The notes beneath the pieces are model-generated. The model was not told the DNA's origin. It made no database searches and saw nothing but the letters and a program-made list of their open reading frames with translations. Shown here piece after piece: positions 8,617-26,117 of a stretch of DNA of 64,000 bases. The DNA comes from Comamonas sp. NLF-1-9 (GTDB lineage: Bacteria > Pseudomonadota > Gammaproteobacteria > Burkholderiales > Burkholderiaceae_C). Within the stretch, counting starts at the first letter, position 1, and every line of letters begins with the position of its first letter. The DNA lies in NCBI RefSeq assembly GCF_019195435.1, contig NZ_CP078069.1, positions 2,790,001 to 2,854,000 on the forward strand. Direction: 5' to 3'. A program made the translations under genes and the position numbers.

Positions 8617-8638
8617 CGGGCGCGCCTGGCGCGCCGCC

Positions 8639-8938: not shown

Positions 8939-8946
8939 GGCGTGAC

Positions 8947-9417: not shown

Positions 9418-9449
9418 GGCGGCTGTCCTGTGACTGTCTTCTAGACCTG

Positions 9450-9476
9450 ATATCGGCAGCGGACGGAGAAACTGAA
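9450..9476 (-). promoter_or_regulatory. Sigma28 (FliA) promoter for fliS-fliT
   Basis: On the minus strand: TTCAGTTT, 11 bases, GCCGATAT, close to the FliA consensus TAAAGTTT-N11-GCCGATAA. It is the best -10 match in the window and ends 33 bp before the fliS start. Confidence 0.85.
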
Positions 9477-9484
9477 GCCTGCCC

Positions 9485-10918: not shown

Positions 10919-11099
10919 TGCTGCCTCCTTGCACTTGTGCCCACCTTGCAGCGGACATTATCAAACCGCGATGCGTCTGCGTGTCCCGGAAAAGGCCGGT
11001 GCAACTGCGCTACTTTGCACCACCCGCGCCCGGAATGCGCAAAAGCGGCCGGAGCCGCCAGGCCCCTGCCGCATTGCATCAAACGCTTTCGGGTAGAGG

Positions 11100-11135
11100 G
11101 GCGGCGCGCCGGGTCAACCCCCGGCGCTGCCGCCC
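11100..11135 (-). terminator. GC-rich hairpin after flagellin 1
   Basis: GGCGGCGCGCCGGG and CCCCGGCGCTGCCGCC flank a five-base loop, 18 bp after the flagellin stop. A uridine tract is missing, so termination is inferred from position and stem strength. Confidence 0.5.
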
Positions 11136-11152
11136 TTCAGCCCCGCGCTGCC

Positions 11153-12670
11153 TCAGCGCAGCAGGGCCAGCACACCTTGCGGCAACTGGTTGGCCTGCGC
11201 CACCATGGCGGTGCCGGCCTGCTGCAGGATTTGCGTGCGCGACAGGTTGGCGGTTTCCGCCGCGAAGTCGGCATCCAGAATCCGGCCGCGAGAGGCGGAC
11301 ATGTTCTCGGACGTGACCTGCAGGGCGGCAATCGAGGTCTCGAAGCGCGACTGCAGGGCGCCGAGCTTGGCGCGTTCACCGGCGATGTAGGACAGGGCCG
11401 AGTCGACGGTCTTGAGCGAGTGCGTGGCCTTGGCGAAATCGGTGATGTCCAGATCAGACACTTTCTTCAGATCCGAATTCAGCGTGGCTGCCGTGCCCGA
11501 CAAGGCAGTGGTCGTGGTGGATACCGCGCTGAAGGACTTGTCAGAATCCAGCGTGATGTAGCCGCTGACCGCAACCGCGACGGCGCCGGCGTTGGTCGCC
11601 ATCGATTGCGACGTGCCCATCGTGGACACTCCGCCCTTGCCATCGCCGGTCATCTTCACCACGTCGACCGTACCTGCATTGGCGGCTGCCGTGCTGCCGA
11701 TGGCAATCGTGTTGCCGGTGGCATTGGTCAGCACGATGGCTGTGGCGTCCTTGTTCAGCGATGCGACCACGCCCGTCTTGGACGATTGCTCGTTGATGGC
11801 CTGGACGGCAGCAGACAGACCTTCGGCCCCCGAGTTGGCGGTGAGCGAGAAGGAGATGGTCTTCGGATCCGCCTTGTTGTCGGATTCGATGGTGATCGCG
11901 TAGGAGCCGATGGCACCAAACGTCACCTGGGCCTCGGTGCGGGCCGTGGCCGTCACGCCGGTGGACTGGGTCTGCTGATTGACCGCCTGCGCTATTGCCG
12001 TGGCATGCGCATTGGAACTTACCGCGATATTGGCGCTGCCCAGCGCGCCATTGATGGCGATCGTGCCAGCGGCGACGCCGTTGGAGCCATAGGCGGTTGC
12101 CGTTGCAATGGTGGCTTGGGCGGTCGTGCCGCCTGCGGCGACGCCCGACACCTGGTTGTTGCCATAGACGCTGGTGCGCAGGTTGGCGGTAGCGGCAACG
12201 ATGGTCTGGTTGGCATTGGCACCGACCTGGAATTGCTGGGTGCCAAAGGCGCCGTCGAGCAGTTTTTGCCCGTTGAACTCCGTGGTTTGCGCCACGCGGT
12301 CCAGTTCGGACACCAACTGGTTCACTTCCTGCTGCAGCGCCTGGCGGTCGGACGCGCTGTTGGAGGCGTTGGCCGACTGCACGGCCAGCTCGCGAATGCG
12401 CTGCAGCATGTCGCCGGCGGCCTTCATCGCGCCTTCAGCGGTCTGCGCCAGCGAAATGCCGTCGTTGGCATTGCGCGCCGCCTGGTTCAGGCCGCGGATC
12501 TGGCTGGTGAAGCGCTCGGAGATCGCCATGCCGGCCGCGTCGTCCTTTGCGCTGTTGATGCGCAGGCCCGACGACAGGCGCTGGATGGAGGTATTGAGCG
12601 AACTCTGGCTCAGACCCAGGTTGCGCTGGGCGGTCAGCGAGGCGACGTTGGTGTTGATAGTGGCGGCCAT
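11153..12670 (-). CDS. fliC: Flagellin 1
   Basis: A 505-residue flagellin with the conserved D0/D1 N-terminal domain ([17 protein letters not shown]; about 1-165), a Ser/Thr/Ala-rich central region (about 170-410) that is surface exposed in filaments, and the conserved C-terminal domain ending [18 protein letters not shown]. Flagellin is exported unfolded and polymerises as the filament. The start at 12670 is preceded by AAGGAGAA. Expression should depend on the sigma28 promoter at 12803-12829. The central region is rich in Ser and Thr, the residues O-glycosylated in other flagellins. A close paralogue lies head-to-head 318 bp away. Confidence 0.97.
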
Positions 12671-12802
12671 TGCAAATTCTCCTTCAAGGAAGCTGATGAA
12701 TATGGCGGTGTCGCCATGTGGGCCCATGGCTGAATGGCCCAGCCCACAGTGCCCCGAAGGGCTTTCTGGTGGCGGCGGAGGTGTTACGCCCCGTTGCAAG
12801 CT

Positions 12803-12829
12803 ATTTCGACCGGCCGGCGCGGAACTTTA
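12803..12829 (-). promoter_or_regulatory. Sigma28 promoter for flagellin 1
   Basis: Minus strand TAAAGTTC, 11 bases, GTCGAAAT. The -35 box matches consensus at seven of eight positions and the spacer is exact. It leaves a leader of about 125 bases. The 318 bp between the two flagellin genes contain this element, a weak plus-strand candidate at 12841-12867, and no gene. Confidence 0.82.
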
Positions 12830-12840
12830 GGCCTGAATTT

Positions 12841-12867
12841 GCAAGCTGCCCGTGGTTTGCCCGGCTT
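12841..12867 (+). promoter_or_regulatory. Weak sigma28-like candidate for flagellin 2
   Basis: GCAAGCTG (12841-12848) matches the flgM -35 box at seven of eight bases, but the element 11 bases on, CCCGGCTT, keeps only CCG of the -10 consensus. No better plus-strand candidate is visible in the gap. Confidence 0.2.
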
Positions 12868-12988
12868 ATCCGGCGACTGCAGCGCGCTCAAATTTCCACA
12901 ATCTGCCCATCTTCCCGTCTTGTCTGCCAGACGGTGTGTTGGCCACCCAGTGCGGACGTACAGCCCTCAGCCATCAGGAGCACGAGCC

Positions 12989-14512
12989 ATGGCCGCGACC
13001 ATCAATACCAATGTGGCTTCACTGACAGCGCAGCGCAATCTGGGCATCAGCCAGGGGTCACTCAATACTTCGATACAGCGCCTGTCCTCGGGCCTGCGCA
13101 TCAACAGCGCCAAGGACGACGCGGCCGGCATGGCGATCTCCGAGCGCTTCACCAGCCAGATCCGCGGGCTGAACCAGGCGGCGCGCAACGCCAACGACGG
13201 CATTTCACTGGCGCAGGTGGCCGAAGGCGCGATGAAGGCGGCGGGAGACATCTTGCAGCGGGTGCGCGAACTGGCGGTGCAGTCGGCCAACGCGTCCAAC
13301 TCGATCAGCGACCGCCAGGCGCTGCAGCAGGAAGTGAATCAGCTCGTGGCGGAACTGGACCGGGTGGCGCAAACCACGGAGTTCAATGGCCAGAAGCTGC
13401 TGGACGGAAGTTTCGGCACATCGCAATTCCAGGTGGGCGCCAACGCCAACCAGACCATCGTGGCGGCCACGGCCAACCTGCGCACCAATGTCTACGGCAA
13501 CAACCAAGTCTCCGGCACGGCCGCCGGGGGCACCGGAGCGCAGCCCACGATAGCGGCGACAAGCGCCTATGGCTCCAACGGCGTGGCCGCTGGCTCACTG
13601 GTCATCAATGGCGCCCTGGGCAGCAGCGAGACCATCGCCGTGGCCACGGGAGCGCACGCCAAGGACGTGGCGCGCGACATCAATCAGCAAACCCAGCTTA
13701 CCGGCGTGAGCGCGACGGCGCGCACCGAAGCGCAGCTGGCTTTCGGCACCGCCGGCTCCTACGCCATCACGCTGGAGTCGGACAATACGCCCGACCTCAA
13801 GACCATTTCGTTTTCGCTCACCTCGCCGACCGGCTCCGAGGGCTTGTCCGCTGCCGTGCAGGCCATCAACGAGCAATCCTCGAAAACCGGGGTGATCGCC
13901 TCGCTGAACAAGGATGCGTCGGCCATCGTGCTGACCAATGCGACGGGCAACACGATTGCGGTCGGGCATACCGCGTCGGACAACGCGGGCACCGTCACCG
14001 TCACCAAGATGGTGGGAGACGGCAGCGGCGGCACCGCCGCCCTGGGTACGCCGCAGACCATGGCAACCAACGCCGGCGCGGTCGCGGTTGCGGTCAGCGG
14101 CTACATCACGCTGGATTCGGACAAGTCCTTCAGCGCTGCGTCCACGACCACCAACGTGCTGGATGGCGCCGGCACGGGTACGCTCAATTCGGACCTCAAG
14201 AAGGTCTCCGAGCTGGACATCACGGACTTCTCCAAGGCTACCCATTCGCTCAAGACCGTCGATTCGGCCCTGTCCTACATCGCCGGGGAGCGCGCCAAGC
14301 TCGGTGCCCTGCAGTCGCGCTTCGAGACCAGCATCGCCAGCCTGAACATCACGTCGGAAAACATGTCGGCGTCGCGTTCGCGCATCCTGGATGCGGACTT
14401 TGCGGCGGAAACCGCCAACCTGTCGCGCACCCAGATCCTGCAGCAGGCCGGCACCGCCATGGTGGCGCAGGCCAACCAGATACCACAGGGTGTGCTGGCG
14501 CTGCTGAAGTAG
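12989..14512 (+). CDS. fliC: Flagellin 2
   Basis: A 507-residue flagellin, closely similar to flagellin 1 along its whole length. The N-terminal ~100 residues differ at only a few positions, the C-terminal ~90 likewise, and the central domain differs by scattered substitutions and short indels rather than replacement. It ends [18 protein letters not shown]. The start at 12989 is preceded by AGGAG at a slightly long distance. It is divergent from flagellin 1 and followed 101 bp later by the glycosyltransferase gene. Unlike flagellin 1, a clear sigma28 promoter is missing, so it may be expressed differently or weakly. Confidence 0.97.
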
Positions 14513-14613
14513 GGCGCCGCGCTGCGCCACTCCGGGTCTGACACCCGCACCCGGTGCACTACCATGGCGCGGCGGCGTCAGTGAGGCCCGCAGCCGGCGT
14601 GAAGACTGCCATC

Positions 14614-16794
14614 ATGAAGCAACACCACCACGACCCCATGGCAGAGCGCCTGCAGGCCGCCCGGGCCGGCGGCGACTGGCCCTTGCTCATCCGCCTTTGC
14701 CGTCAGGCCCTGCGCAAGAATGGTCGCCACCAGATGGCCCACCGCCTGCTGGGCTTTGCGCTGGGACAAAAAGGTGAAGTCGATGCGGCCCTGCAGGCTT
14801 TCGGCAGAGCTGCCGTCCTGTATCCGCACGATGCGGAGCTGCTGATCAACCATGCCAACCTGCTGGTCGGCCAGGAGAGGCCACGAGAGGCGCTGCCCCT
14901 GCTGGAAGAAGTGGTGCGACTGCGCCCCGAGCGCAGCGTCTGCTGGATGAAGCTGGCCCAGTGCTGCTATCCCATCAATCTGCACCAGAGGGGATATGAG
15001 GCGAGCGAACACGCGCTGAGATGCGCTGTTGACGACCTGGAACGCGTCAACGCCCTGACACAGCGCGCCATACATCGGCGGGAACTGGGGCAGATACGCG
15101 AAGCGGTGCAGGACTGTACCGAAGCCATCGCCCTGGCGCCCCAATTCGCCGCCAACCATTCCAATCGCCTGCTGTTCATGCTGGCAGACCCCGAGACCAG
15201 CCCGCAGGCGCTGACCGCTGCCGCCAGGGAATTCGGCAATACGTTCGAGCCGCAGTTCAAGCCCCACTGGCCCAGCTATGAAGAGCGCCGCGGCGATCCT
15301 TGGCGCAGACTGAAAGTGGGCTTCATCTCGCCGGACTTTCGCAAGCATGCGGTGATGTGTTTTGCCGAGGGCATCCTGGCGCAGCTGGACCGTCGCCAGT
15401 TCGAGGTGTACGGGTTCTACACCTACCCGCAGGACGACAACGTGACCGAACGGGTGCGTTGCCACGTGGACCATTTCATCCGCCTGCATGATCAGGACGA
15501 AGAGCAGCGCGCCCTGACCATACGCCGCCACGCAATCGACATCCTGGTCGACATGAGTGGCCACACCGGGCACCATTCGCTGCTCACCCTGGCGCGCAAG
15601 CCCGCGCCGGTGCAGGCTACCTTCATCGGTTTCGTGGCTACCACGGGTTTGACTGCCATCGACTATTACCTGACGGACGAGGTCATCAATCCGCCGGGGG
15701 CGGATGCGTTGTTTACCGAGACGCTGTTCAGGCTTCCCACTTACCTCACCAGCTACCGCGCCCACAGTCGCAATCCATTGTGGCGCTACCAGCCGCGCTA
15801 CGCCGTGCAGCCCACACCTGCCCTGCGCAACGGCTTTGTCACCTACGGTTCGTGCAACAACCTGGGCAAGTTGACGGATGACGTGTTGACGCTGTGGGGT
15901 GAAATCTTGCAGCGGACGCCTGCGGCGCGCCTGTTGATTGAAGGCAAGGGGTTTGAAAAACCCGAATTCGCGGCAGACTACAAAGATCGCTGCGCCAAAC
16001 TTGGCATAGATGTCCAGCGACTGATGCTTGTGCCGCTGGATACCGACAGGCAGTACCTGGCCTATCACGACATCGATATTGCGCTCGATCCCTTCCCTTT
16101 GACCGGCGGGACCACAACTCTCGATACCTTGTGGATGGGGGTGCCCTTGGTGTCGATGGAGGGAAGCAGTTCGCCCGCGCGGATCAGTACAGAGGCACTG
16201 ACCTACCTGGGCCGCTCGCAATGGCTGGCCAAAACCCGAGACGAGTACCTGGCCTTGGCGATCGGCTTTGCGGCTGATATAGAGCAACTCAACGCTTTGC
16301 GCCTATCGCTGCGCGATGAAGTCGAACGATCACCGCTGATGCGTGACGATATCGTTTGTCCACATTGGGCCGATGCATTGCGCACCATGTGGCTGCGCTG
16401 GCAGGCCGGACTGGAGCATCCCGATGATGCGCAGGCCCAGGAGCGTGCCGTGGCCGCCTGGCTGGCCGCTTGTCCGGCGCACCTGCGCACGCCGCCCGTA
16501 CCGCGTGTGGGTCTGCCCGATGGCGCCGAGCTGGCGCTGCCGCAAGCGCATGCGCGGCTGCAGGAGTTGGTGGAACGCGCGCTGGCCCGCGATACGGGCA
16601 AGGACTGCGCGCAAGCCCCTCTAAAGATGGACCAATGCTGGCGCAGCGTGACCGAATTCGCCGAACTGGTCTTGAGCGCCGTGCCCAATGACCCGGTGGC
16701 CTTGGCCTGCTTGGCCGAAGTGGAACACGCTCACGGCCAAACCGAATTTGCCGTGACTTACCTGCGTTACGCCACCAAGGCGATGGCGCTGTAG
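14614..16794 (+). CDS. SPINDLY-family (GT41) O-GlcNAc-transferase-like protein, probable flagellin glycosyltransferase
   Basis: A 726-residue cytosolic protein: TPR-like helical repeats (about 10-190), then a two-part GT41 catalytic region (about 225-590). Recognisable motifs are KVGFISPDFRKHAVM, DMSGHTGHHSLLTLA, the TGLTAIDYYLTDE block, YGSCNNLGKLTDDVLTLW and ALDPFPLTGGTTTLDTLWMG. The Lys in NNLGK corresponds to a nucleotide-binding Lys of eukaryotic OGT; where OGT has NGHTT, this protein has TGGTT. A helical TPR-like tail follows (about 620-726). GT41 enzymes transfer a sugar from a nucleotide donor to Ser/Thr of proteins. Directly downstream of flagellin 2, on the same strand, flagellin is the likely acceptor. 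I chose ATG 14614 over an upstream GTG. The acceptor and donor are inferences. Confidence 0.85.
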   Translation: MKQHHHDPMAERLQAARAGGDWPLLIRLCRQALRKNGRHQMAHRLLGFALGQKGEVDAALQAFGRAAVLYPHDAELLINHANLLVGQERPREALPLLEEVVRLRPERSVCWMKLAQCCYPINLHQRGYEASEHALRCAVDDLERVNALTQRAIHRRELGQIREAVQDCTEAIALAPQFAANHSNRLLFMLADPETSPQALTAAAREFGNTFEPQFKPHWPSYEERRGDPWRRLKVGFISPDFRKHAVMCFAEGILAQLDRRQFEVYGFYTYPQDDNVTERVRCHVDHFIRLHDQDEEQRALTIRRHAIDILVDMSGHTGHHSLLTLARKPAPVQATFIGFVATTGLTAIDYYLTDEVINPPGADALFTETLFRLPTYLTSYRAHSRNPLWRYQPRYAVQPTPALRNGFVTYGSCNNLGKLTDDVLTLWGEILQRTPAARLLIEGKGFEKPEFAADYKDRCAKLGIDVQRLMLVPLDTDRQYLAYHDIDIALDPFPLTGGTTTLDTLWMGVPLVSMEGSSSPARISTEALTYLGRSQWLAKTRDEYLALAIGFAADIEQLNALRLSLRDEVERSPLMRDDIVCPHWADALRTMWLRWQAGLEHPDDAQAQERAVAAWLAACPAHLRTPPVPRVGLPDGAELALPQAHARLQELVERALARDTGKDCAQAPLKMDQCWRSVTEFAELVLSAVPNDPVALACLAEVEHAHGQTEFAVTYLRYATKAMAL

Positions 16795-16865
16795 TGGTGA
16801 TGACGATTTGGCACACCGAGGCATCTCAGTCGGCAATGATCGCGTTCGTGGTCTTGCGCAACCCG

Positions 16866-17762
16866 TCATGGCAAGGCAAGGCCTCCGAATTCATGGAGCA
16901 TCTTGCTTGAACCCACAGTGCCGCAAATTCGAGCGTCAAGTGCGTGAATTTTAATGCGTGATATCAGATCGGCATGGCCTATTGCGGATTCAAGCACCCA
17001 GGAGCCGAAACCACCATCGACCAAGTGATCTTCAATGGTCTCTATTTTGCTGAATTTCTTTGCGTACTGTATTTGCCGGGATTTTTGGTTCAGTCCCCAC
17101 AAAGGCAGACTGTGCACGCTGTAATCTTGATATGCAGAACTATTGATCCAATTCATCGCAATATCGAGCGTTGCGCCTGTGGTGAGTAATGTTTTTTGAT
17201 CTGGAACGTTGCATTCACTCTGGAAAACCTTCAGCCATTCTCCAGGTTTTATTTCTGGTACCGCCGAGTGAAAGCAAGGCTCTCCTGCCTTCCCGAGTCT
17301 GAGATAAGACGGTTGAGGGTTGGATATCAGATAGCGCAAACATGCGCGAACTTCCAAGGGGTCGCCCGGGGCTGCGATCAACATGTTTGGGAAAATACGC
17401 ATCAAAGCATAATCTTGAACCGCATGATGAGAATACCCCAAGGCACCATAAGCCACGCCGCCGCCAACTGAAACCACAGTTACCGGAAGATTATGGAAAT
17501 CCACATCGTTTCGGATTTGTTCCGCACAGCGGAAGGTGGGGAAATTGGCAATCGAGTAGGTGAATACATGATAACCTTCAGATGCCATACCTGCCGCTAG
17601 TCCGGTCATGTTTTGCTCTGCAACACCCGCATTGATGAAGCGGTCTGGAAAAGTATCGGCAAAAGGCTCGATAACCGAAAACCCCAAATCACCGGTAATC
17701 AAGGCGATGTTTTCGTGCTCTCTGGCCAGGCTGACCAGTTCGTCTATGAATGCATTTCGCAT
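16866..17762 (-). CDS. Transketolase, C-terminal subunit
   Basis: A 298-residue protein matching the pyrimidine-binding and C-terminal domains of a split transketolase. It has the catalytic Glu of ThDP enzymes in the motif INAGVAEQNMTGLAAG (about 45-60) and the His-rich SHHAVQDYALMR segment that helps bind substrate phosphate or sugar. It needs the N-terminal subunit encoded just upstream (stop TGA and this ATG are separated by one base). Together they would move a two-carbon ketol unit between sugars. It is the last gene of the rfbF-to-transketolase operon and is visibly AT-richer than the flagellar genes. A housekeeping pentose-phosphate role is unlikely in this context. Confidence 0.87.
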   Translation of the reverse strand: MRNAFIDELVSLAREHENIALITGDLGFSVIEPFADTFPDRFINAGVAEQNMTGLAAGMASEGYHVFTYSIANFPTFRCAEQIRNDVDFHNLPVTVVSVGGGVAYGALGYSHHAVQDYALMRIFPNMLIAAPGDPLEVRACLRYLISNPQPSYLRLGKAGEPCFHSAVPEIKPGEWLKVFQSECNVPDQKTLLTTGATLDIAMNWINSSAYQDYSVHSLPLWGLNQKSRQIQYAKKFSKIETIEDHLVDGGFGSWVLESAIGHADLISRIKIHALDARICGTVGSSKMLHEFGGLALP

Positions 17763-17763
17763 A

Positions 17764-18564
17764 TCAGCCGCGCTCCAACTCGTGCAAAGCCTTGGCAAGC
17801 TGAATGTCATCGGGCGATCGATAATGCCATTCAACAGAATTTTCCATATAAGATACGCCCTTGCCTTTGATGGTGTGGGCTATCAACAATGAAGGCTTGC
17901 CAGCGCTCCATGGCGTGGTGCTCAGCATATCTGTCAAGGAGGCGTGGTCGTGGCCATCTGCTTCTCGAACTTGCCAGCCGAATGCGGAAAATTTGTCAAC
18001 CAATGGCTCCAGGCGCAGCGTTTGCTCCACTGTAGTCAAGCTCTGCAGCTTGTTGTAATCAATGATCGCCACCAAATTGTCAAGATGGTGGTGGGCTGCA
18101 AACAGCAGTGCTTCCCAATTGCTACCCTCTCCCCACTCTCCGTCACTCAGTAATACAAAAGTTCTCCAGTCGGATTTTTTCTTTTTGGCTGCCAGGGCCT
18201 TGCCAACGCCAAAAGGCAGTCCATGACCCAACGACCCAGTAGAAAATTCGGCACCAGCAACCTGGTGACTGATGTGATTCATGAGTGCTGAACCGTCTTG
18301 GCCGTAGGTCTCCAGATCTTCTGCCGTGATGAATCCACATTCGGCCAGGGCGGCATATATGGCAACACATGCATGCCCTTTGGACAACAAAAATCGATCG
18401 CGCTCTGGCCATTCCGGATCGGCCGGAGAAACGGCAAGTACTTTACCATATAAAACGGCAACTATATCACAGATGGATAATGCGCTTGCGATGTGCGATG
18501 CTTTCGCGGCATGCACCATGCGAAGTGCTTGCATGCGCATTTTGCGGGCAAGTTCAATTGTCAT
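17764..18564 (-). CDS. Transketolase, N-terminal (ThDP-binding) subunit
   Basis: A 266-residue partner of the downstream C-terminal subunit. It has the substrate/ThDP histidine region LLSKGHACVAIYAAL (about 60-74) and the ThDP-Mg motif SDGEWGEGSNWEA...DYN (about 140-170), with Ser in place of the first Gly of the usual GDG. Its start overlaps the stop of the preceding reductase (ATGA), indicating translational coupling. Split transketolases like this occur in sugar and secondary-metabolite clusters, where they can attach or remove two-carbon units. Base composition is clearly lower in GC than the surrounding genome. Confidence 0.87.
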   Translation of the reverse strand: MTIELARKMRMQALRMVHAAKASHIASALSICDIVAVLYGKVLAVSPADPEWPERDRFLLSKGHACVAIYAALAECGFITAEDLETYGQDGSALMNHISHQVAGAEFSTGSLGHGLPFGVGKALAAKKKKSDWRTFVLLSDGEWGEGSNWEALLFAAHHHLDNLVAIIDYNKLQSLTTVEQTLRLEPLVDKFSAFGWQVREADGHDHASLTDMLSTTPWSAGKPSLLIAHTIKGKGVSYMENSVEWHYRSPDDIQLAKALHELERG

Positions 18565-19508
18565 TCGAGAAAGTGTTGTTTGGGCAATGAATCCAAAATG
18601 GCACGCGCTTCAATTTCTATTCCTTCCAGTGAAGAATACAGGGGGGCGTACCCGATGCTCGAAGCTTGTTTGCCAGTTGGATAGTAATTGACTTTCGTAT
18701 TGATTTTGGGCAACCCGTTTTTCTTGGCCTCCTTGTAAACCAGCCCGAAATTTTCACTCATGAACTGAAGCAGTGCTTTTTTGGACACCGGAGCGCGGCT
18801 GTAGCAATCGAGCACTCGATTTTCGAAAGGAGAGGCCAGTACTTTTTCAATCAATTGATGAAAATCCACTGGATGCAAATAATCGCGCACAATGTGATCG
18901 GACGAAACTTCCAGAGTTGATCTATTGTGTATGGCACGGAGTATTTCAGAAATGAAAAATTGCGCACCCAAGTCTTGTGACCGACTGAAATAACTAAAAA
19001 TGCGGACGTCGACAATCCCCAGATGATCCAGGGAGCGATGGTTCAACTCGGTGCACAACTTTGAAATTCCATACCAATCCGCGGGTTGGGGCTGGTTTAT
19101 TTCCACAGTTGCATGCGTGTGCATGTTGGGCGGCACGAGAAAAGACGATCCGTATGTTGCGCCGCTACTCAAAAATATATATCGGCAGTCCGTGTGAGAT
19201 GCCAAATAATCCAATGCAATCTGGTCAAATTGGCGGGTTGTTTCAAATATCTTCCTGCCCATGGCCAATGCCGTTGCTGGGTTGCCTGCCCCTACAAAAT
19301 TGATTATTGCGTCAAATGTCTTTTCCGTGGAGAAATGGTCAAAGTTGGAGATGACGGGGCGATTTGAGTGATCGACACTGCTTAGCCAATGCTCTACCGC
19401 ATCAGGCCGACGCGCAAACAACGTCAAGTCGTGATCGTTTTTTTCAAGAAAACACTTGATCAAATCTTTGGCGATTTGGCTTGTGGCCCCAAGTATGGCA
19501 ATTCTCAT
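18561..19508 (-). CDS. NAD-dependent epimerase/reductase (extended SDR)
   Basis: A 315-residue extended short-chain dehydrogenase. The N-terminal Rossmann motif is GATSQIA (7-13), the active site is Ser114/Ser115 with Tyr146 and Lys150 in WYGISK, and the substrate half carries VRIFSYFSRSQD. The family includes nucleotide-sugar epimerases, dehydratases and 4-ketoreductases, and the sequence alone does not separate these. With an upstream set that makes a CDP-4-ketosugar and a downstream transketolase, a reductase of the 4-keto or newly added keto group is the most sensible guess. It starts 6 bp after the methyltransferase and overlaps the transketolase N subunit by 4 bp. Confidence 0.82.
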   Translation of the reverse strand: MRIAILGATSQIAKDLIKCFLEKNDHDLTLFARRPDAVEHWLSSVDHSNRPVISNFDHFSTEKTFDAIINFVGAGNPATALAMGRKIFETTRQFDQIALDYLASHTDCRYIFLSSGATYGSSFLVPPNMHTHATVEINQPQPADWYGISKLCTELNHRSLDHLGIVDVRIFSYFSRSQDLGAQFFISEILRAIHNRSTLEVSSDHIVRDYLHPVDFHQLIEKVLASPFENRVLDCYSRAPVSKKALLQFMSENFGLVYKEAKKNGLPKINTKVNYYPTGKQASSIGYAPLYSSLEGIEIEARAILDSLPKQHFLE

Positions 19509-19514
19509 TGGAAT

Positions 19515-20291
19515 TCACAATTCTATATAGGAAATCCATGGGTCAATAGTGAATCGATTGATTCTGTGACTATTTATCCCCATGACCTCTTCCAGTGCCC
19601 GGGTTTCTCCTGGAAAAGAATTGCAATTGATTTCGTCAAATGCGACTATTGCGCCCTTCGGCATTTTTGGCAGGAAAAGTTCGAGCGCTCTTTTGGTTGG
19701 CTCATACAAATCGAAATCCAGATACAGCAGCGAGATAATTGTATGGGGGTTGTCTTGAAGATATTTCTCTGACGTTTCAAAAAAATCACCGGAAACGAAA
19801 TCGATATTGTTGATGTGCGAAAGGTGTCGTTCTTTGTTGTGTTTTTTCGCCGAGGCAAGTAATTCTTCAAGACTTGATCCGCGCAGATCACCAACTTTGT
19901 TTTGGAATTCGGCGGTATTGTCCATGTCTTTATTTATGCCCGGGAAGCCATTGAATGTATCGAATCCCACGATTTTTCGCGTGTGATTTGCTGGTTCATA
20001 AATATTGCTTAACTGAGCCCATGAAAACAGGCCTGCACCGTTGAATACTCCACACTCTACGATTATCCCTGTGACTCCCAATATTTTCTTGAATAATTCA
20101 TGCTTTGCCAAAAACCTTGCAATGGATCTTTTCGGCACAAATCGCGGAAAGGCTTCAAGCTTGTCTATCAATGGTATTGAGGATTTTGCAAATGCCTGTT
20201 CGGTCAGGGAATAGGAAATTTTGTCGTTTTCCGAATGACGGCTGCCCAATGTCCCATTGGGGCTGATTGCGAGCGGGATGTCCTGTTTCAT
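19515..20291 (-). CDS. TylF/MycF-like SAM-dependent sugar O-methyltransferase
   Basis: A 258-residue protein of the TylF (macrocin O-methyltransferase) family. The SAM site is IVECGVFNGAG (about 77-87), followed by GFDTFNGFPG, the metal/catalytic acidic region LYLDFDLYEPT and the FDEINCNSFPGE motif, typical of these Mg-dependent sugar methyltransferases. It probably O-methylates the sugar made by this operon, either as nucleotide sugar or after transfer. ATG 20291 (MKQDIPLAIS) is chosen; a TTG 75 bp upstream would add a hydrophobic stretch not seen in the family. This gene is among the most AT-rich in the window, consistent with acquisition by transfer. Confidence 0.8.
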   Translation of the reverse strand: MKQDIPLAISPNGTLGSRHSENDKISYSLTEQAFAKSSIPLIDKLEAFPRFVPKRSIARFLAKHELFKKILGVTGIIVECGVFNGAGLFSWAQLSNIYEPANHTRKIVGFDTFNGFPGINKDMDNTAEFQNKVGDLRGSSLEELLASAKKHNKERHLSHINNIDFVSGDFFETSEKYLQDNPHTIISLLYLDFDLYEPTKRALELFLPKMPKGAIVAFDEINCNSFPGETRALEEVMGINSHRINRFTIDPWISYIEL

Positions 20292-20325
20292 GGCAATCCA
20301 GATCCAAATTATTATTGCGACAAAG

Positions 20326-20418
20326 TCATGCAAATAGAGAGCCAGCGTGGTAGCGATTCGGCTCAATCAAAAACAAGCTTTTGAGCGAAACCTTGTCGCG
20401 TTGGCTGATCGCTCGCAT
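20326..20418 (-). CDS. Small ORF with strong ribosome site at the rfbH/methyltransferase junction
   Basis: A 30-codon frame beginning MRAISQRDKVSLKS follows a textbook ribosome site (GGAGAAACGCC-ATG) 18 bp after rfbH, and ends before the methyltransferase. I recognise no family. It may be the surviving 5' end of a gene replaced when the AT-richer block arrived, or a short leader peptide. The base composition changes sharply across it. Confidence 0.3.
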   Translation of the reverse strand: MRAISQRDKVSLKSLFLIEPNRYHAGSLFA

Positions 20419-20436
20419 GGCGTTTCTCCGATTCGT

Positions 20437-21753
20437 TCATTCAAAGTCGACGCCCAGATAGGCCCGGATGCTCTTGGCGGCAAATTCCAGCATCTCCTGC
20501 GTCAGCGCCGGTTGCACGCCGATCCAGAAGGTGTCGTTCATCACCTTGTCGGTGTGCTCCAGCGTGCCACTCACGCGGTAGTTGCGGCCCAGCATATAAG
20601 GCTGGCGCGTGAGGTTTCCGGCGAAAAGCAGGCGGGTTCCCACTTTGTTCTGATCCAGGTAGGTGAGCAGGTCCAGACGCGAAACCGGGGCGTTGTCGCG
20701 CAGCGTGATGGGAAAGCCGAACCACGAGGGGTCGCTGCCCGGCGTGGCGTGGGGCAGGATGAGAAATTCTTCGCAGTCGCGCAGCCGCTCGTGCAGCCAA
20801 GCGAAATTGGCTTTGCGCCGGGCAATGAATTGATCGGCCTTTTCAAGCTGCGCCAGGCCGCAGGCGGCCTGCATGTCGGTGATCTTGAGGTTGTAGCCCA
20901 GGTGGCTGTAGGTGTATTTGTGGTCGTAGCCCATGGGCAGGGTGCCGAACTGCTGGGCAAAGCGCTTGCAGCAGGTGTTGTCCTTGCCGGGCGCGCAGTA
21001 GCAGTCGCGCCCCCAGTCGCGAAAGCTCTCGGCGATCAATTTGAGTTCATCGTTGTTGGTGAACACCGCGCCGCCCTCGCCCATGGTGATGTGGTGCGCA
21101 GGATAGAAGCTCAGCGTGCCGATGTCGCCGAAGCTGCCTACCTTGCGGCCCTGCCAGGTGGAGCCGAGCGCGTCGCAGCAGTCCTCGATCAGCCACAGGC
21201 CGTGCTTTTTGCACAGCGCGGTGACGACGTCCAGGTTGAACGGGTTGCCCAGCGTGTGGGCCAGCATGATTGCCTTGGTTTTCGGGCCGATGGCCGCCTC
21301 GATCCGGCTGGCGTCGATGTTGTAGCTGCCCAGCTCGATGTCGACGAATACCGGCACGGCGCCAAATTGCAGCATGGGGTTGACCGTGGTCGGAAAGCCT
21401 GCGGCCACGCCGATCACCTCGTCGCCCGGGCGGATGGCGCGGCTGCCCAGCCGCGGGCTGGTCAGCGTGCTGAACGCGACCAGGTTGGCCGAGGAGCCCG
21501 AATTGACGGTGATGGCGTGGCGCACGCCCAAAAAGGCCGCCAGCTTGAGTTCGAAGGCGGCGTTGAAGCGGCCGGTGGTCAGCCAGCCATCCAGGCTGGC
21601 CTCGACCATGTATTTGAGTTCCTCTGCGCCTAGCAGCTTGCCCGAGGGCGGCACAGGCGTGCTGCCGGGCTCGAAGGCCTGCGGGCGCAGGCTGGCGGCG
21701 GCGTACTGCTCGACCAGCCGGGCAATGTCGGCGCGAATTTCTTGCGGCGTCAT
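20437..21753 (-). CDS. rfbH: CDP-4-dehydro-6-deoxyglucose-3-dehydrase (E1, iron-sulfur PMP enzyme)
   Basis: A 438-residue PLP-fold protein. It preserves every diagnostic feature of E1/RfbH. Histidine (residue 220 or 221, in [12 protein letters not shown]) occupies the usual Schiff-base lysine position. Cysteines 193, 251, 253 and 261 give exactly the C-X57-C-X1-C-X7-C pattern that binds its [2Fe-2S] cluster. With a reductase partner E1 removes the C3 hydroxyl of CDP-4-keto-6-deoxyglucose, giving the 3,6-dideoxy-4-keto sugar. The start at 21753 overlaps the rfbG stop by 4 bp; a longer upstream frame is spurious. No E3 reductase gene (ascD/ddhD/rfbI) is in the window. Confidence 0.95.
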
Positions 21754-22829
21754 GGGCTTTCCTCGAAGGCGCGCAGGTCGGCCAGGCACAAGGCGCGGGC
21801 GTCCTGCCCTGCGGCCTGGGCGCGGTACCAGGCCATGGTGCGCGCCACGGCCTGCTCCAGTGTCCAGCGCGGCGCCACGCCCAGCGTCTGGCGGGCCTGG
21901 GCGGTTTCCAGTGCAAGCCAACCGGCCTCGTGCGGCTGATTATTACTATTTTGATAGCTGATTGCGCTTGTTGGATAAGCGCCAGAGGCCAATTTCAATA
22001 CAAATTCGACCGTCGCCGCTTCATGCGGCAGCGGGCCGAAGTTGTAGGCCCCCGCCAGTTCGGGCTGCTCCCACAGGCGCTCGGCCAGTCTCAGATAGGC
22101 GGCCAGCGGTTCGAGTACGTGCTGCCAGGGGCGGGTGGCCTGCGGGTTGCGGATCACCAGCTCTTGCCCTGCGCCCCAGGCGCGCACGGCGTCGGGGATG
22201 AGGCGGTCCTCGGCCCAGTCGCCGCCTCCAATCACGTTGCCCGCGCGCGCGGTGGCCAGCGCCAGGCCCTGGGCCTGCAAAAAGGCGCTGCGGTAGCTGG
22301 CCGCGACCAGTTCGCACGCGGCCTTGCTGGCGCTGTAGGGGTCGTGGCCGCCGAGCGCGTCGTCCTCGCGGTAGGGCCAGGCCCATTCGCGGTTGCGGTA
22401 GACCTTGTCGGTGGTGACGACGACGGCCACGCGGGCGTCGCTCTGGCCGCGCAGCGCATCGAGCACATGGGCCGTGCCCTGCACGTTCGTGGCCCAGGTG
22501 GCCAGCGGCTCGGCGTAGCTCTGGCGCACCAGGGCCTGCGCGGCCAGGTGCAGCACGATCTGCGGGCGCGCCTTGCGCACGATGGTGGCCACGGCCTGCG
22601 CATCGCGGATATCGGTGCAATGGCTGGCCTGCAAGTCGCCTGCGATCCTTGCCAGGGTGAACAGATTGGGTCTGCCGACCGGTGCGAGCGACAGGCCCGT
22701 GACCTCGGCGCCGAGCTCTGTCAGCCACAGTGCCAGCCACGCGCCCTTGAAGCCGCTGTGGCCGGTGAGCAGCACGCGCTTGCCGCGCCAGAAGGCGAGC
22801 GACGGGGCAGGGGTGGCGTTCACCAGCAT
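21750..22829 (-). CDS. rfbG: CDP-glucose 4,6-dehydratase
   Basis: A 359-residue extended SDR. It shows the NAD-binding [10 protein letters not shown] motif (about 25-34), the [11 protein letters not shown] strand with active-site Thr/Asp, and YSASK with catalytic Tyr and Lys (about 167-171). It converts CDP-glucose to CDP-4-keto-6-deoxyglucose. It overlaps rfbF by 10 bp and rfbH by 4 bp, so the three are tightly coupled. Unusually, near its 3' end the reading frame runs through a copy of the dispersed AAGCGC repeat (21947-22000), which supplies the [16 protein letters not shown] segment before the conserved [10 protein letters not shown] motif. The frame is intact, so the protein probably still works. 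Confidence 0.95.
21947..22000 (+). repeat. AAGCGC-core repeat inside rfbG, copy 2
   Basis: TATTTTGATAGCTG followed by a GCGCTTGTTGGATAAGCGCCAG palindrome and GGCCAATTT. It is the cleanest copy of the family in the window and lies entirely within coding sequence, translated in frame on the minus strand. Confidence 0.8.
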
Positions 22830-23590
22830 TTCCAGGGCGCCTGGCCGCTGGCCCAGAGCTCTTCGAGCAGGTTTTTCTCGCGCAGCGTGTCCATGGGCTG
22901 CCAGAAGCCGTGGTGCTCGAAGGCGCGCAATTGGTTCTGACTCGCCAAGGTCTTCATCGGCGTGGATTCCCACGGGCTTGCGTCGCCATCGATGAGCCCG
23001 ATGACCTCGGGCTGCAGCACGAAGAAGCCGCCATTGATCCAGCCGCCGTCGCCGGCCGGCTTTTCTTCAAAACCGGTGACTGCACCGCCCTCGTGCGCCA
23101 GCGTGCCGAAGCGACCCGGCGGCTGCACGGCGGTGATGGTGGCCAGCCGCCCGTGCGCGCGGTGAAACGCAAACTGCTCCTCCATGTCCAGATCGGCCAC
23201 GCCGTCGCCGTAGGTGAAGCAGAAGGTTTCGCCGGGGTCCAGGTACTCGCGCACGCGGCGCAGGCGACCGCCGGTCTGGGTGTTCTCGCCGGTATCGACC
23301 AGGGTCACGCGCCAGGGCTCGGCGTGGCGGTGGTGTACTTGCATGCGGTTTTCCGCCATGTCAAAGGTGACGTCGGACATGTGCAGGAAGTAATTGGCGA
23401 AGTACTCCTTGATGACATAGCCCTTGTAGCCCAGGCAGACGATGAAGTCGTTCACGCCGTGGGCGGAATAGATCTTCATGATGTGCCACAGGATGGGCCG
23501 CCCGCCGATCTCGATCATGGGCTTGGGGCGCAGGTGCGACTCTTCGGCGATGCGGGTTCCAAGCCCGCCGGCAAGGAGGACGGCTTTCAT
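22820..23590 (-). CDS. rfbF: Glucose-1-phosphate cytidylyltransferase
   Basis: A 256-residue nucleotidyltransferase. The signature is at the N-terminus: MKAVLLAGGLGTRIAEES followed by RPKPMIEIGGRPILWHIMKIY, where the GGLGTR loop and the second lysine bind CTP and sugar phosphate. It makes CDP-glucose from CTP and glucose-1-phosphate, the first step of the CDP-3,6-dideoxyhexose pathway. It is the first gene of the minus-strand sugar operon. ATG 23590 is chosen over one 12 bp upstream because the family starts MKAVxLAGG. Promoter signals lie in the 222 bp shared with the divergent motA. Confidence 0.95.
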   Translation of the reverse strand: MKAVLLAGGLGTRIAEESHLRPKPMIEIGGRPILWHIMKIYSAHGVNDFIVCLGYKGYVIKEYFANYFLHMSDVTFDMAENRMQVHHRHAEPWRVTLVDTGENTQTGGRLRRVREYLDPGETFCFTYGDGVADLDMEEQFAFHRAHGRLATITAVQPPGRFGTLAHEGGAVTGFEEKPAGDGGWINGGFFVLQPEVIGLIDGDASPWESTPMKTLASQNQLRAFEHHGFWQPMDTLREKNLLEELWASGQAPWKCW

Positions 23591-23597
23591 GGCGTGC

Positions 23598-23624
23598 AGC
23601 ATACCCAGTGCATGACGTGGTCAA
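23598..23624 (-). promoter_or_regulatory. Weak sigma70-like candidate for the rfbF operon
   Basis: Minus strand TTGACC (23619-23624) and TATGCT (23598-23603) are 15 bases apart, shorter than optimal. Transcription would begin nearly at the rfbF start codon. Confidence 0.3.
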
Positions 23625-23728
23625 AAGCCGCTGGGATGGGCGAAAACCCGGGTATCTTGCGCGATCGCGCCGCACTTGCCCGCAGGGCGCGGGCCCGGCA
23701 ATAGCGCCAAATGGCCGTGCTTTACAGT

Positions 23729-23755
23729 TCAAGTGAGGGGAACGGCGGTCGATAC
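23729..23755 (+). promoter_or_regulatory. Sigma28 promoter for motA-motB-cheY-cheZ
   Basis: TCAAGTGA, 11 bases, GTCGATAC, 57 bp upstream of motA. The spacer equals that of the other FliA sites in the window and the CGATA core is intact. Confidence 0.82.
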
Positions 23756-23812
23756 CCTTGCTAGGATCGGTGCGCCTTTGCGGGGTTTGCGCGCTCAACC
23801 AAGTCAACGCTC

Positions 23813-24673
23813 ATGTTCATCATCATCGGCTATGCCGTCGTCTTCGGAAGCGTCTTCGGCGTGTTCGTGGCGCACGGCGGAAACATCCATGTGCTCATGG
23901 AGGCCTTGCCGTTCGAGATGGCCACGATCGGCGGCGCGGCGGTGGGGGCCTTCGTGGTCAACAACCAGCCCAAGGTGCTCAAGGGGACGCTCTCGGCGCT
24001 GCCCAAGCTGTTCAAGGGCAGCCAGTACACCAAGGCGCGCTACATGGAGCTGCTGGCCATGCTCTACGAGATCCTGCAGAAGGCGCGCAAGGAAGGCCTG
24101 ATGGCCATCGAGGCCGACGTCGAGGAGCCGGAAAAGTCCGAGCTGTTCAAGAAATTCCCCACGGTGGGCAGCGACCACCATGTGCTCGAATTCACCACCG
24201 ACTACCTGCGCATGATGGTCTCGGGCAACCTCAACGCCCACGAGATCGAGGCGCTGATGGACAGCGAGATCGAAACCCACCACCAGGAGGCGCACGGCCC
24301 GGTGGCCGCGCTCACCCGCCTGGCGGGCGCGCTGCCGGCCTTCGGCATCGTGGCGGCGGTGCTCGGTGTGGTCAACACCATGGGCAACGTCGGCCAGCCG
24401 CCGGCGGTGCTCGGCGGCATGATCGCCTCGGCGCTGGTGGGCACCTTCCTGGGCATCTTCCTGGCCTACGCGGTGGCCGAGCCGCTCGCCGGCCTGCTCG
24501 AGCAGCGCAACGAGGACGCCAGCAAGGAGCTGGTGTGCATCAAGTCCACGTTGCTGGCCAGCATGCAGGGCTACAACCCGGCGACGGCCATCGAATTCGG
24601 GCGCAAGGTGCTGTTCTCCGACGTGCGCCCGAGCTTCATCGAACTGGAATCGCACGTGAAGGGCAAGAAATAG
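23813..24673 (+). CDS. motA: Flagellar motor stator protein MotA
   Basis: A 286-residue inner-membrane protein with four membrane helices: two at the N-terminus (from MFIIIGYAVVFGSVFGVFVAHGG), a large cytoplasmic loop (about 60-165) that contacts FliG, and two C-terminal helices including LPAFGIVAAVLGVVNTMGN, which contains a conserved Pro of the ion channel. With MotB it forms the proton-driven stator. It is expressed from a sigma28 promoter with motB and the chemotaxis output genes, so power and steering are made late with the filament. Confidence 0.97.
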   Translation: MFIIIGYAVVFGSVFGVFVAHGGNIHVLMEALPFEMATIGGAAVGAFVVNNQPKVLKGTLSALPKLFKGSQYTKARYMELLAMLYEILQKARKEGLMAIEADVEEPEKSELFKKFPTVGSDHHVLEFTTDYLRMMVSGNLNAHEIEALMDSEIETHHQEAHGPVAALTRLAGALPAFGIVAAVLGVVNTMGNVGQPPAVLGGMIASALVGTFLGIFLAYAVAEPLAGLLEQRNEDASKELVCIKSTLLASMQGYNPATAIEFGRKVLFSDVRPSFIELESHVKGKK

Positions 24674-24699
24674 GGCTTTGCAGCCCGCGGTGATGCGCC

Positions 24700-25662
24700 A
24701 TGGCGGACAAGAAACTGCAACCCATCATCATCAAGCGCGTGAAGAAGGCGGACCATGGCGCGCACGGCGGCGCCTGGAAGATCGCCTACGCCGACTTCGT
24801 GACCGCGATGATGGCCTTCTTCCTGCTGATGTGGCTGCTGGGCTCGACCAGCAAGGGCGACCTGCAGGGCATTGCCGAGTACTTCGCCTCACCGATGAAG
24901 GTGGCGATGCAGGGCGGCGACGGCGCGGGCAACAGCTCCAGCGTGATCCAGGGCGGCGGCACCGATCTGGCGCGCGTCTACGGCCAGATGCGCCGCAGCC
25001 AGGACAGTGACGCCGACAAGGGCCACACCAGCCAGCAGGCCCGACCCCAGAGCATCGAGGCCCAGCGTGCCGAGCGTGCGCGCATCGATGCGCAGCGCAT
25101 CAAGGAGCTGCAGGGCAAGCTCGAATCGGTGATCACCCAGGACATGGCGCTCAACGAATACCGCTCGCAGATCCGCATCGACGTCACGCCCGACGGCCTG
25201 CAGGTGCAGATCGTCGATGAGCAAAACCGCCCCATGTTCGACAGCGGCAGCGCGCTGGTCAAGAACTACATGCGCAGCATCCTGCGCGCCATCGGCGGGG
25301 CGCTGGGCGGGGTGGAAAACCGCGTCAGCATCGCCGGGCACACCGACGCCACGCCCTATGGCAACGGCGAGCGCGGCTACAGCAACTGGGAGCTTTCCGC
25401 CGACCGCGCCAACGCCTCGCGGCGCGAGCTGGTGGCCGGCGGCATGCCCGACGACAAGCTGATCCGCGTGGTGGGCCTGGCCGCCAGCGACCCGCTGCAG
25501 CCGCAGGAGCCGCGCGCCGCGGTAAACCGGCGCATCACCATCACGGTGCTCACGCGCGAGGCCGAAGAGCGCCTGATGGGCCACGACCTGCCGGCGCTGA
25601 GCCTGCCCGCTGGCCCGGCAGAGAAAAACCCGGACAATGCGGCCCCTGGGGCTGCCGGGTAA
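24700..25662 (+). CDS. motB: Flagellar motor stator protein MotB
   Basis: A 320-residue partner of MotA. The single N-terminal membrane helix carries the essential proton-binding Asp32 in AYADFVTAMMAFFLLMWLL. A plug region follows, and the C-terminal OmpA/MotB domain (about 150-285) has the peptidoglycan-binding signature SIAGHTDATPYG...WELSADRANASRREL. The C-terminus is a ~35-residue Pro/Ala tail. It lies 26 bp after motA. Confidence 0.97.
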   Translation: MADKKLQPIIIKRVKKADHGAHGGAWKIAYADFVTAMMAFFLLMWLLGSTSKGDLQGIAEYFASPMKVAMQGGDGAGNSSSVIQGGGTDLARVYGQMRRSQDSDADKGHTSQQARPQSIEAQRAERARIDAQRIKELQGKLESVITQDMALNEYRSQIRIDVTPDGLQVQIVDEQNRPMFDSGSALVKNYMRSILRAIGGALGGVENRVSIAGHTDATPYGNGERGYSNWELSADRANASRRELVAGGMPDDKLIRVVGLAASDPLQPQEPRAAVNRRITITVLTREAEERLMGHDLPALSLPAGPAEKNPDNAAPGAAG

Positions 25663-25730
25663 GCGCCGATGGCGGGCAGCGACGGCGGCCGCAATAATCC
25701 ATTACATGTGTTCGACCGAAAGGGTCTCCA

Positions 25731-26117
25731 GTGTCCTCAGCCCTTCGTTTCCTGATAGTTGACGATTTTTCGACGATGCGCCGCATCGTGCGCAACCTGC
25801 TCAAGGAGAGCGGGTTCACCGAAGCCGATGAAGCCGAAGACGGCGTGGTTGCGCTGCAGAAGCTGCGCAACAGCAAGTTCGACTTTGTCGTCTCCGACAT
25901 CAACATGCCCAACATGAACGGCTTTCAGTTGCTGGCGGAGATCAAGAAGGACGACGCGCTCAAGCACCTGCCGGTGCTGATGGTCACGGCCGAGGCGCGC
26001 AAGGAAGACATCGTTGCCGCCGCCCAGGGCGGGGCCGCGGGCTACATCGTCAAGCCCTTCACCAAGGCCACGCTCGAAGAAAAGGTCACGCTCATCCTCA
26101 AGAAACTGGGCTTGTAG
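25731..26117 (+). CDS. cheY: Chemotaxis response regulator CheY
   Basis: A 128-residue single receiver domain with all key residues: acidic pocket Asp11/Asp12, phospho-acceptor Asp56, switch Thr86 and Lys108. Phospho-CheY binds FliM to change motor rotation. The start is a GTG at 25731 ([18 protein letters not shown]), the position where CheY homologues begin. It precedes cheZ by 2 bp; the kinase CheA and receptors must be elsewhere. Confidence 0.97.

Follow-up and report, generated by a model that had tools for sequence, protein, structure and literature searches.

A candidate flagellin-glycosylation island with a split transketolase predicted to branch a CDP-linked deoxysugar

Background

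In the yersiniose-type pathway, which proceeds through CDP-4-keto-3,6-dideoxyglucose, YerE and a reductase, the CDP-4-keto sugar comes from RfbF, RfbG and RfbH; a ThDP enzyme then attaches further carbon to C-4, after which the reductase is expected to act. The same three supply genes occur in the 64,000-nucleotide stretch of Comamonas sp. NLF-1-9 DNA analyzed here (the window), and the same succession of steps is proposed for it. The window differs in that a split transketolase replaces YerE, one more hydroxyl is predicted on the branch, and the predicted target is flagellin rather than O-antigen. According to passages of a 2025 review (PMC12247030), YerE belongs to the decarboxylase class and takes pyruvate as donor, and for miharamycin and amipurimycin it has been proposed that split-gene transketolases attach a hydroxyacetyl group to a keto sugar; those passages note 13 further Streptomycete split transketolases and present the branching reactions as untested proposals. 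The initial annotation of this locus knew of no described pathway that uses a transketolase in this step, a statement that these proposals correct. Compared by description, as given in the same passages, the miharamycin and amipurimycin enzymes belong to antibiotic pathways, the further examples are all from Streptomycetes, and no CDP-deoxysugars are involved.

Organization of the locus

The locus had been described as a flagellin gene and a GT41 gene followed by a minus-strand series rfbF-rfbG-rfbH-methyltransferase (MT)-SDR-TK_N-TK_C and then motA. All eight genes were present in that order and matched curated families, as follows.

11153..12670, minus strand: flagellin 1 (505 aa; Ser+Thr 21%, central region 26%)
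12992..14512, plus strand: flagellin 2 (506 aa), directly upstream of the GT41 gene; 98% identical in the genome G255
14614..16794, plus strand: TPR + GT41 protein, candidate flagellin glycosyltransferase (PF13844 Glyco_transf_41, 132.9 bits)
16866..17762, minus strand: TK_C, C-terminal (PYR) component of the split transketolase (PF02779 Transket_pyr, 105.7 bits)
17764..18564, minus strand: TK_N, N-terminal (ThDP-binding) component of the split transketolase (PF00456 Transketolase_N, 145.5 bits)
18561..19508, minus strand: SDR, candidate branch-ketone reductase (PF01370 Epimerase, 59.9 bits)
19515..20291, minus strand: TylF-like O-methyltransferase, MT (PF05711 TylF, 37.1 bits); start at ATG 20291, with TTG 20366 also open
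20437..21753, minus strand: rfbH (NF011936 equivalog, 737.6 bits, cut-off 423)
21750..22829, minus strand: rfbG, CDP-glucose 4,6-dehydratase (TIGR02622, 474.5 bits, cut-off 278.45)
22820..23590, minus strand: rfbF, glucose-1-phosphate cytidylyltransferase (TIGR02623, 465.5 bits, cut-off 300.25); ATG at 23602 also open
23813..24673, plus strand: motA, bounding the flagellar sugar island on the right
16792..20393, no strand: cassette exchanged relative to G255 (collinearity break and low GC)

The Pfam matches of GT41, TK_N, TK_C, SDR and MT all exceed the Pfam cut-offs, and the matches of RfbF, RfbG and RfbH to curated equivalogs above cut-off uphold their assignment as the source of a CDP-4-keto-3,6-dideoxy sugar; rfbG above cut-off is single-copy in this genome. 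Most joints are as tight as had been reported, with overlaps of 10 bp (rfbF/rfbG), 4 bp (rfbG/rfbH) and 4 bp (SDR/TK_N) and near-zero gaps, read from the sequence, of 6 bp (MT/SDR) and 1 bp (TK_N/TK_C). The sole loose joint, rfbH/MT, measures 70 bp to the TTG start or 145 bp to the ATG, and coincides both with a shift in GC content, from 64-70% in rfbFGH to 43-51% in MT-SDR-TK_N-TK_C, and with a breakpoint against the sister genome G255. By profile matches, the operon's seven proteins include no flippase, polymerase or glycosyltransferase, in agreement with the initial annotation.

The split transketolase

The N (PP) and C (PYR) halves, TK_N and TK_C, lie side by side and retain the ThDP and catalytic residues expected of a split transketolase: in E. 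coli transketolase numbering, TK_N keeps H26, H66, H100, D155, N185 and H261, and TK_C keeps Glu411 and His473. Their best PDB relatives, 6yak for TK_N and 6yaj for TK_C, belong to the split transketolase of Carboxydothermus hydrogenoformans, the nearest solved structure, which shares the split organization and the conserved ThDP site and which was characterized with hydroxypyruvate as donor (PMC7661550). The two enzymes differ at the acceptor motif, where 6yaj retains HAGLTVGEDGASHQ and the window transketolase carries GGGVAYGALGYSHH; the canonical acceptor residues H461, D469 and R520 are not present in the window enzyme, which has G, L and K instead. Since H461G (47/51) and D469L (41/51) are nearly as common among transketolases with neither rfbF nor rfbG in view, these changes are no marker of CDP-sugar use. 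A separate full-length transketolase is also encoded.

Alpha-ketoacid dehydrogenase branching enzymes of the AlmCI/AlmCII and AviB type resemble the window proposal in that a keto sugar gains a C2 branch through a two-subunit ThDP enzyme. They are of the pyruvate-dehydrogenase type with an acetyl donor, whereas TK_N is of the transketolase type. An E1 of the AlmCI/CII kind was rejected for TK_N because that protein scores far higher with transketolase models (NF004559, 255.8 bits) than with PDH E1 models (PDH E1 alpha, 41.3 bits).

Exchange with a YerE-class cassette

The genome G255, from the same genus, is collinear with the window across the flagellins, GT41, rfbFGH and motA at 89-94% DNA identity. 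Collinearity ends at 16791 and restarts at 20394, which puts one breakpoint at the stop codon of GT41 and the other 43 bp beyond that of rfbH. At the exchange site G255 carries about 7.2 kb encoding NeuB, a YerE-class ThDP enzyme, PhyH, TylF and SDR proteins; no YerE-type enzyme (no TPP_enzyme N/M/C protein) was found in the window operon. The MT, SDR and TK genes behave as a single block that swaps with a YerE-class cassette at the flagellar site, and the alignment places the split transketolase where G255 has its YerE-class enzyme. The pair offers a direct within-genus comparison of the two kinds of cassette.

SDR homologs were found in 6 of 250 family genomes, four beside a split transketolase and two beside a YerE-class gene, and in 10 of 388 phylum genomes, five beside a transketolase, four beside a YerE-class gene and one, at a contig end, beside neither; our own genome is counted in both samples, each time among the transketolase neighbors. 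In the SDR tree the two labels intermingle, with at least four changes ('none' treated as a state). This distribution supports an SDR family common to transketolase and YerE-class clusters, with a predicted role as branch-ketone reductase. Residues S114, S115, Y146 and K150 are invariant across 36 sequences. The top VIA-align match was 8v4h, the NADP-dependent reductase of CDP-glucitol synthesis, and Foldseek ranked 4-epimerases first; the fold does not separate reductase from epimerase.

Distribution of the transketolase and its linkage to rfb genes

TK_C homologs (E <= 1e-20) were present in 29 of the 250 family genomes, and in 11 of these an rfbG above cut-off lay less than 6 kb away. Since independence would predict only about 0.09 such pairs within 10 kb, the linkage is not due to chance. 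The 18 TK_C-bearing genomes without co-location count against the proposed pathway, as do two loci (L044 and L215) that each hold both a transketolase and a YerE-class gene. In the phylum sample TK_C was present in 78 of 388 genomes, with rfbF/rfbG at 8 of the 15 transketolase loci read. Across 119 compared loci, a non-random sample with one contig counted twice, rfbF or rfbG was in view at 68 and none of rfbF, rfbG or rfbH at 44. The window falls inside a clade of 42 in the transketolase tree (support 1.0; one contig counted twice, L173 = L199), and rfbF or rfbG was in view at 37 of these. Among the rfb-linked loci are some from Proteobacteria, Bacteroidetes, Verrucomicrobia, Acidobacteria, a Nitrospina and a Paenibacillus, the last with an SDR-TK_N fusion adjoining rfbFG, TK_C and TylF. 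No second transketolase cassette turned up beside a flagellin, a further point against the proposal: in stretches of about 10 kb on each side, the window was the only one of 11 in the family sample, and there were none in 80 in the named scan.

Methyltransferase, GT41 protein and RfbH partner

The best PDB relative of the methyltransferase is CalS11, a TDP-rhamnose 3'-O-methyltransferase (E 7.9e-40). The GT41 protein joins the PF13844 catalytic domain to several TPR models, as do the protein glycosyltransferases OGT and NGT, from which it is set apart by its association in the genome with CDP-sugar cassettes and flagellin. Known GT41 members use UDP-sugars. Close homologs (E <= 1e-120) occur in seven of the 250 family genomes, including our own; in all seven, flagellin adjoins GT41, and rfbG is located between GT41 and motA, under 6 kb from the former. 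This arrangement supports a tie of the GT41 protein to flagellin and CDP-sugar cassettes. The window has what a flagellin-glycosylation island is expected to have beside flagellin: genes for sugar synthesis and a candidate protein glycosyltransferase. The operon lacks the E3 reductase for the RfbH step (DdhD/RfbI), a point against the pathway proposed below; elsewhere in the genome the best homologs share 38-40% identity with a cluster-borne one.

Proposed pathway

We consider it probable that the locus is an island for flagellin glycosylation and that its cassette produces a CDP-3,6-dideoxyhexose bearing a two-carbon branch. RfbF and RfbG would convert glucose-1-phosphate to CDP-4-keto-6-deoxyglucose, and RfbH, with a reductase partner presumably encoded elsewhere, would remove O-3; these reactions are established for the families concerned. 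TK_N and TK_C, acting as one split transketolase, would take a ketol unit (HOCH2-CO-) from a ketose and place it on the C-4 ketone; the product would be a tertiary alcohol bearing a hydroxyacetyl branch. The SDR would then reduce the branch ketone. The resulting 4-C-(1,2-dihydroxyethyl)-3,6-dideoxyhexose would be related to yersiniose and carry an extra hydroxyl. The CalS11-like enzyme would O-methylate it, probably at the nucleotide-sugar stage, and the GT41 protein would move it onto flagellin. Comparative genomics supports the branched-sugar chemistry (RfbFGH, split transketolase, SDR) put forward in the initial annotation; we infer the product, the donor, the methylation position and the filament target.

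A wider proposal, to which we give somewhat better than even credence, is that a widespread and unrecognized class of split transketolases branches nucleotide-linked 4-keto sugars by ketol transfer, is site-interchangeable with YerE-class enzymes and shares their reductase, and that here the O-methylated sugar is passed to flagellin by a CDP-sugar-using GT41. If so, a textbook enzyme of central metabolism would have been recruited for tertiary-alcohol branched sugars outside the Streptomycetes, the flagellar sugar would have a definite mass of 204.10 Da (190.08 Da unmethylated), and GT41 enzymes able to use CDP-sugars would be suggested. Biocatalysis would gain ketone-accepting transketolases, which passages of the 2025 review (PMC12247030) describe as undemonstrated.

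Alternative explanations

The branched sugar might go mainly into lipopolysaccharide, the flagellar neighborhood being a matter of history. The other transketolase-rfb clusters seen lie away from flagellin, and the genome encodes one Wzy_C ligase/polymerase-type protein, at 2303731, which makes such a use possible. However, no O-antigen cluster was found by eye in the 20 kb around the Wzy_C gene, 20 of 61 family rfbG loci (19 and the window) accompany flagellin or motA, and the arrangement seen in all seven close-GT41 genomes points the same way, so we regard this reading as unlikely. Slightly less likely, in our estimate, is that the transketolase transfers acetyl from pyruvate, as YerE does, to give an ordinary yersiniose-type sugar. 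It stands where a YerE-class enzyme stands, and D469 is Leu in the window; parts of one report (PMC10787763) describe E. coli D469T variants, combined with H100L or H473N in a stabilized background, that accept pyruvate. The window enzyme nevertheless keeps H100 and H473, along with H26, H66 and H261, and the hydroxypyruvate donor of the Carboxydothermus enzyme argues for ketol transfer.

The transketolase could instead serve sugar-phosphate metabolism or another intermediate, with the SDR alone reducing the 4-keto group of the ring, so that an unbranched 3,6-dideoxyhexose results and is methylated. The split-transketolase loci with no rfb gene in view would fit this, as would the SDR fold, which is that of ring-active nucleotide-sugar epimerases and reductases. 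We judge it very improbable, given the separate full-length transketolase available, the clade-wide linkage to rfbFG, the exchange with a YerE-class enzyme and the fusion of transketolase to SDR in Paenibacillus.

Gene content of the flagellin-motA island and proposed pathway

The genome is a single contig of 3.03 Mb (the window is C1:2790001-2854000), and the island contains the following features:

12992..14512, + strand, flagellin 2
14614..16794, + strand, TPR-GT41 protein, directly after flagellin 2
16866..23590, - strand, operon of rfbF, rfbG, rfbH, TylF-like methyltransferase, SDR, transketolase N half (TK_N) and transketolase C half (TK_C)
23813..24673, + strand, motA

The gene order and mostly tight joints described in the initial annotation were confirmed, with five of the six joints being overlaps or gaps of at most 10 bp and only the rfbH/methyltransferase joint looser (70-145 bp). 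RfbF, RfbG and RfbH scored well above the cut-offs of their own equivalog models, and the chemistry of these families is known. No E3 partner of RfbH was found in the operon; candidates elsewhere in the genome have 38-40% identity to a cluster-borne DdhD-like protein. Since the genome also encodes a separate full-length transketolase, pentose phosphate metabolism should not depend on the split enzyme. In the proposed pathway, the split transketolase would transfer a ketol unit to C-4, the branch would be reduced, the TylF-like methyltransferase (nearest solved relative CalS11) would O-methylate the product, and the GT41 protein would transfer the sugar.

According to a 2025 review, the YerE enzyme of yersiniose synthesis branches CDP-3,6-dideoxy-4-ketoglucose at C-4, and transketolases have been proposed, though not shown, as keto-sugar branching enzymes in miharamycin and amipurimycin synthesis (PMC12247030). 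The initial statement that no described pathway has a transketolase at this step is therefore too broad. The same review lists 13 more split transketolases, all Streptomycete, found through gene-cluster similarity, none of them characterised (PMC12247030). Among the matches listed in the open-access literature, we found no report of rfb-linked transketolases. Judged from gene content, the window pathway would work much like the yersiniose type, but that type is defined by YerE, which the window operon lacks.

Linkage of split transketolases to CDP-sugar genes

In a sample of 250 family genomes, TK_C homologs were present in 29 and rfbG over the cut-off in 61, with both in 18 (P = 4e-6). The two genes lay less than 6 kb apart in 11 genomes, where 0.09 would be expected within 10 kb, and all five genomes with a TK_C match below 1e-120 were among these 11. 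Against linkage, 18 of the 29 TK_C genomes had no such co-location. A scan of named genomes, biased because its query alignment was composed of linked members, found rfbF or rfbG at 46 of 80 loci, and at 22 of 23 with at least 60% identity. In the phylum sample, TK_C was found at E <= 1e-25 in 78 of 388 genomes, and rfbF or rfbG was in view at eight of the 15 loci inspected.

We compared 119 transketolases, a mixed rather than random set. In 68 rfbF or rfbG was in view (linked). Against linkage, no rfb gene was in view at 44 loci, and two loci (L044 and L215) contain both a split transketolase and a YerE-class enzyme. The window enzyme belongs to a 42-member clade (support 1.0) that includes 37 linked enzymes. 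Of the five unlinked members, L179, L196, L223 and L224 have a contig end no more than 2.3 kb away on the side concerned, and in L215 rfbH is cut by the stretch edge. Since 24 of the 68 linked loci have rfbF and rfbG without rfbH in the compared stretch, the data suggest that what the acceptors share is the C-4 ketone rather than the 3-deoxy centre. The gene order in Methylovirgula is rfbF-rfbG-SDR-rfbH-TK_N-TK_C. Paenibacillus cellulosilyticus has an SDR-TK_N fusion (Epimerase 19-247, Transketolase_N 383-612); TK_C and a TylF methyltransferase come next, and the group adjoins rfbF-rfbG without rfbH.

Split transketolases of this kind also occur in uncultured alphaproteobacterial and Pelagibacter-type (SAR11) genomes (L215, L216, L218-L222), with rfbF- or rfbG-type genes at six of the seven loci. 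At seven other loci (L043, L187, L226, L242, L251, L263, L266) a TylF-like methyltransferase adjoins the split transketolase with no rfbF or rfbG in view, perhaps for branching of another sugar.

Cassettes at the flagellar site

Close GT41 homologs were found in seven of the 250 family genomes, and in all seven rfbG over the cut-off lay less than 6 kb away (P = 4e-5 for co-occurrence by genome content alone). At each of these loci (the window, L090, L108, L136, L140, L145 and L146) flagellin adjoins GT41, and rfbF-rfbG lies between GT41 and motA. The six loci other than the window, from other genera, carry a cassette with a C-methyltransferase match in place of the transketolase block, and no transketolase was found in these cassettes; that of L140 encodes, by Pfam, a C-methyltransferase and a 3,5-epimerase-type protein. 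CDP-sugar cassettes thus differ among flagellin-GT41-motA islands at one flagellar site. More widely, flagellin or motA accompanies 20 of the 61 family rfbG loci (the window and 19 others), and among the loci compared no transketolase cassette other than that of the window was found beside flagellin.

A genome of the same genus, G255, is collinear with the window over 8001-16791 (88.6% identity; 8001 is the start of the compared stretch) and again over 20394-26000 (94.2%; 26000 is its end). In between, the window's methyltransferase-SDR-TK_N-TK_C block has a GC content of 43-51% against 63-70% in the surroundings, while G255 has approximately 7.2 kb encoding NeuB, a ThDP enzyme, a PhyH protein, a different TylF methyltransferase and a different SDR. 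By its TPP_enzyme N, M and C domains, the G255 ThDP enzyme (609 aa) belongs to the decarboxylase class, as does YerE. The four-gene block is an exchanged cassette, and closely similar rfbFGH and GT41 genes therefore accompany two different ThDP enzymes. By eye, the flagellin-motA interval carries other genes in six further genomes of the genus with a motA match (L161-L166).

The G255 cassette (L089, 1258-6769) represents a second flagellar type, also seen in genome G136 (L143, 2236-7683), with the order rfbH, NeuB-like protein, YerE-class ThDP enzyme, PhyH-type protein, TylF methyltransferase and SDR; identities are from Pfam for L089 and, for L143, by eye from like size and start. The NeuB-type enzyme could supply a long 2-keto acid as donor, and this cassette may then build a long-chain branched sugar. 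Positions 6800-7700 of L089, still within the G255 cassette, have 38% GC and no called gene; the gene caller used misses low-GC genes.

The SDR as partner of both ThDP enzyme types

At E <= 1e-30, SDR homologs occurred in six of the 250 family genomes, including the window's, all in rfb clusters, four with a split transketolase and two with a YerE-class enzyme. Of the ten found in the 388 phylum genomes (again including the window's), five adjoin a transketolase and four a YerE-class enzyme; the remaining one (G323) sits with rfbFGH at the end of a contig, where neither enzyme type is visible. Nine of the ten have rfb genes in view; in the exception, G362, the contig breaks off beside TK_N. 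In a tree of 20 SDRs, five of which came through the transketolase scan and two from one contig, the transketolase and YerE-class labels intermingle, with at least four changes when "none" is counted as a state. Most simply, both ThDP enzymes would yield a branched ketone that is handled by one reductase family.

The predicted SDR structure (mean pLDDT 88.4) folds like nucleotide-sugar epimerases and reductases, and 36 homologs all share Ser114/115, Tyr146 and Lys150. Foldseek placed 4-epimerases on top, while in VIA-align a Campylobacter NADP-dependent reductase of CDP-glucitol synthesis was narrowly the best match; the modeled fold does not distinguish a reductase from an epimerase.

At three loci, putative acetaldehyde dehydrogenase and 4-hydroxy-2-oxovalerate aldolase genes, named by eye, accompany rfbH and YerE-class/SDR genes (L105, 10262-12189; L114, 12789-14710; L178, 6587-8466). 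Their products could make a hydroxy-keto-acid donor.

Active site of the split transketolase

Using E. coli transketolase (TktA) for numbering, the window enzyme keeps E411, H473, R358, S385, H26, H66, H100, H261, D155 and N185, but H461 is changed to Gly, D469 to Leu and R520 to Lys. The acceptor motif is thus altered, whereas that of the Carboxydothermus split transketolase is canonical. Engineering at S385, D469 and R520 shifted the E. coli enzyme off phosphorylated acceptors, as one report describes (PMC5073344). Transketolases without rfbF or rfbG in view also carry H461G (47 of 51) and D469L (41 of 51), so these changes point to a non-standard acceptor across the whole subfamily, not to CDP-sugars alone. 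Lys at 520 is more common in linked (63 of 68) than in unlinked (25 of 51) enzymes.

His100 to Leu is one of the changes by which an engineered E. coli transketolase accepts pyruvate, according to another report (PMC10787763). Leu is found at this position in seven linked, rfbFGH-associated split transketolases (L044, L046, L048, L049, L050, L052 and L177), which may use a different donor.
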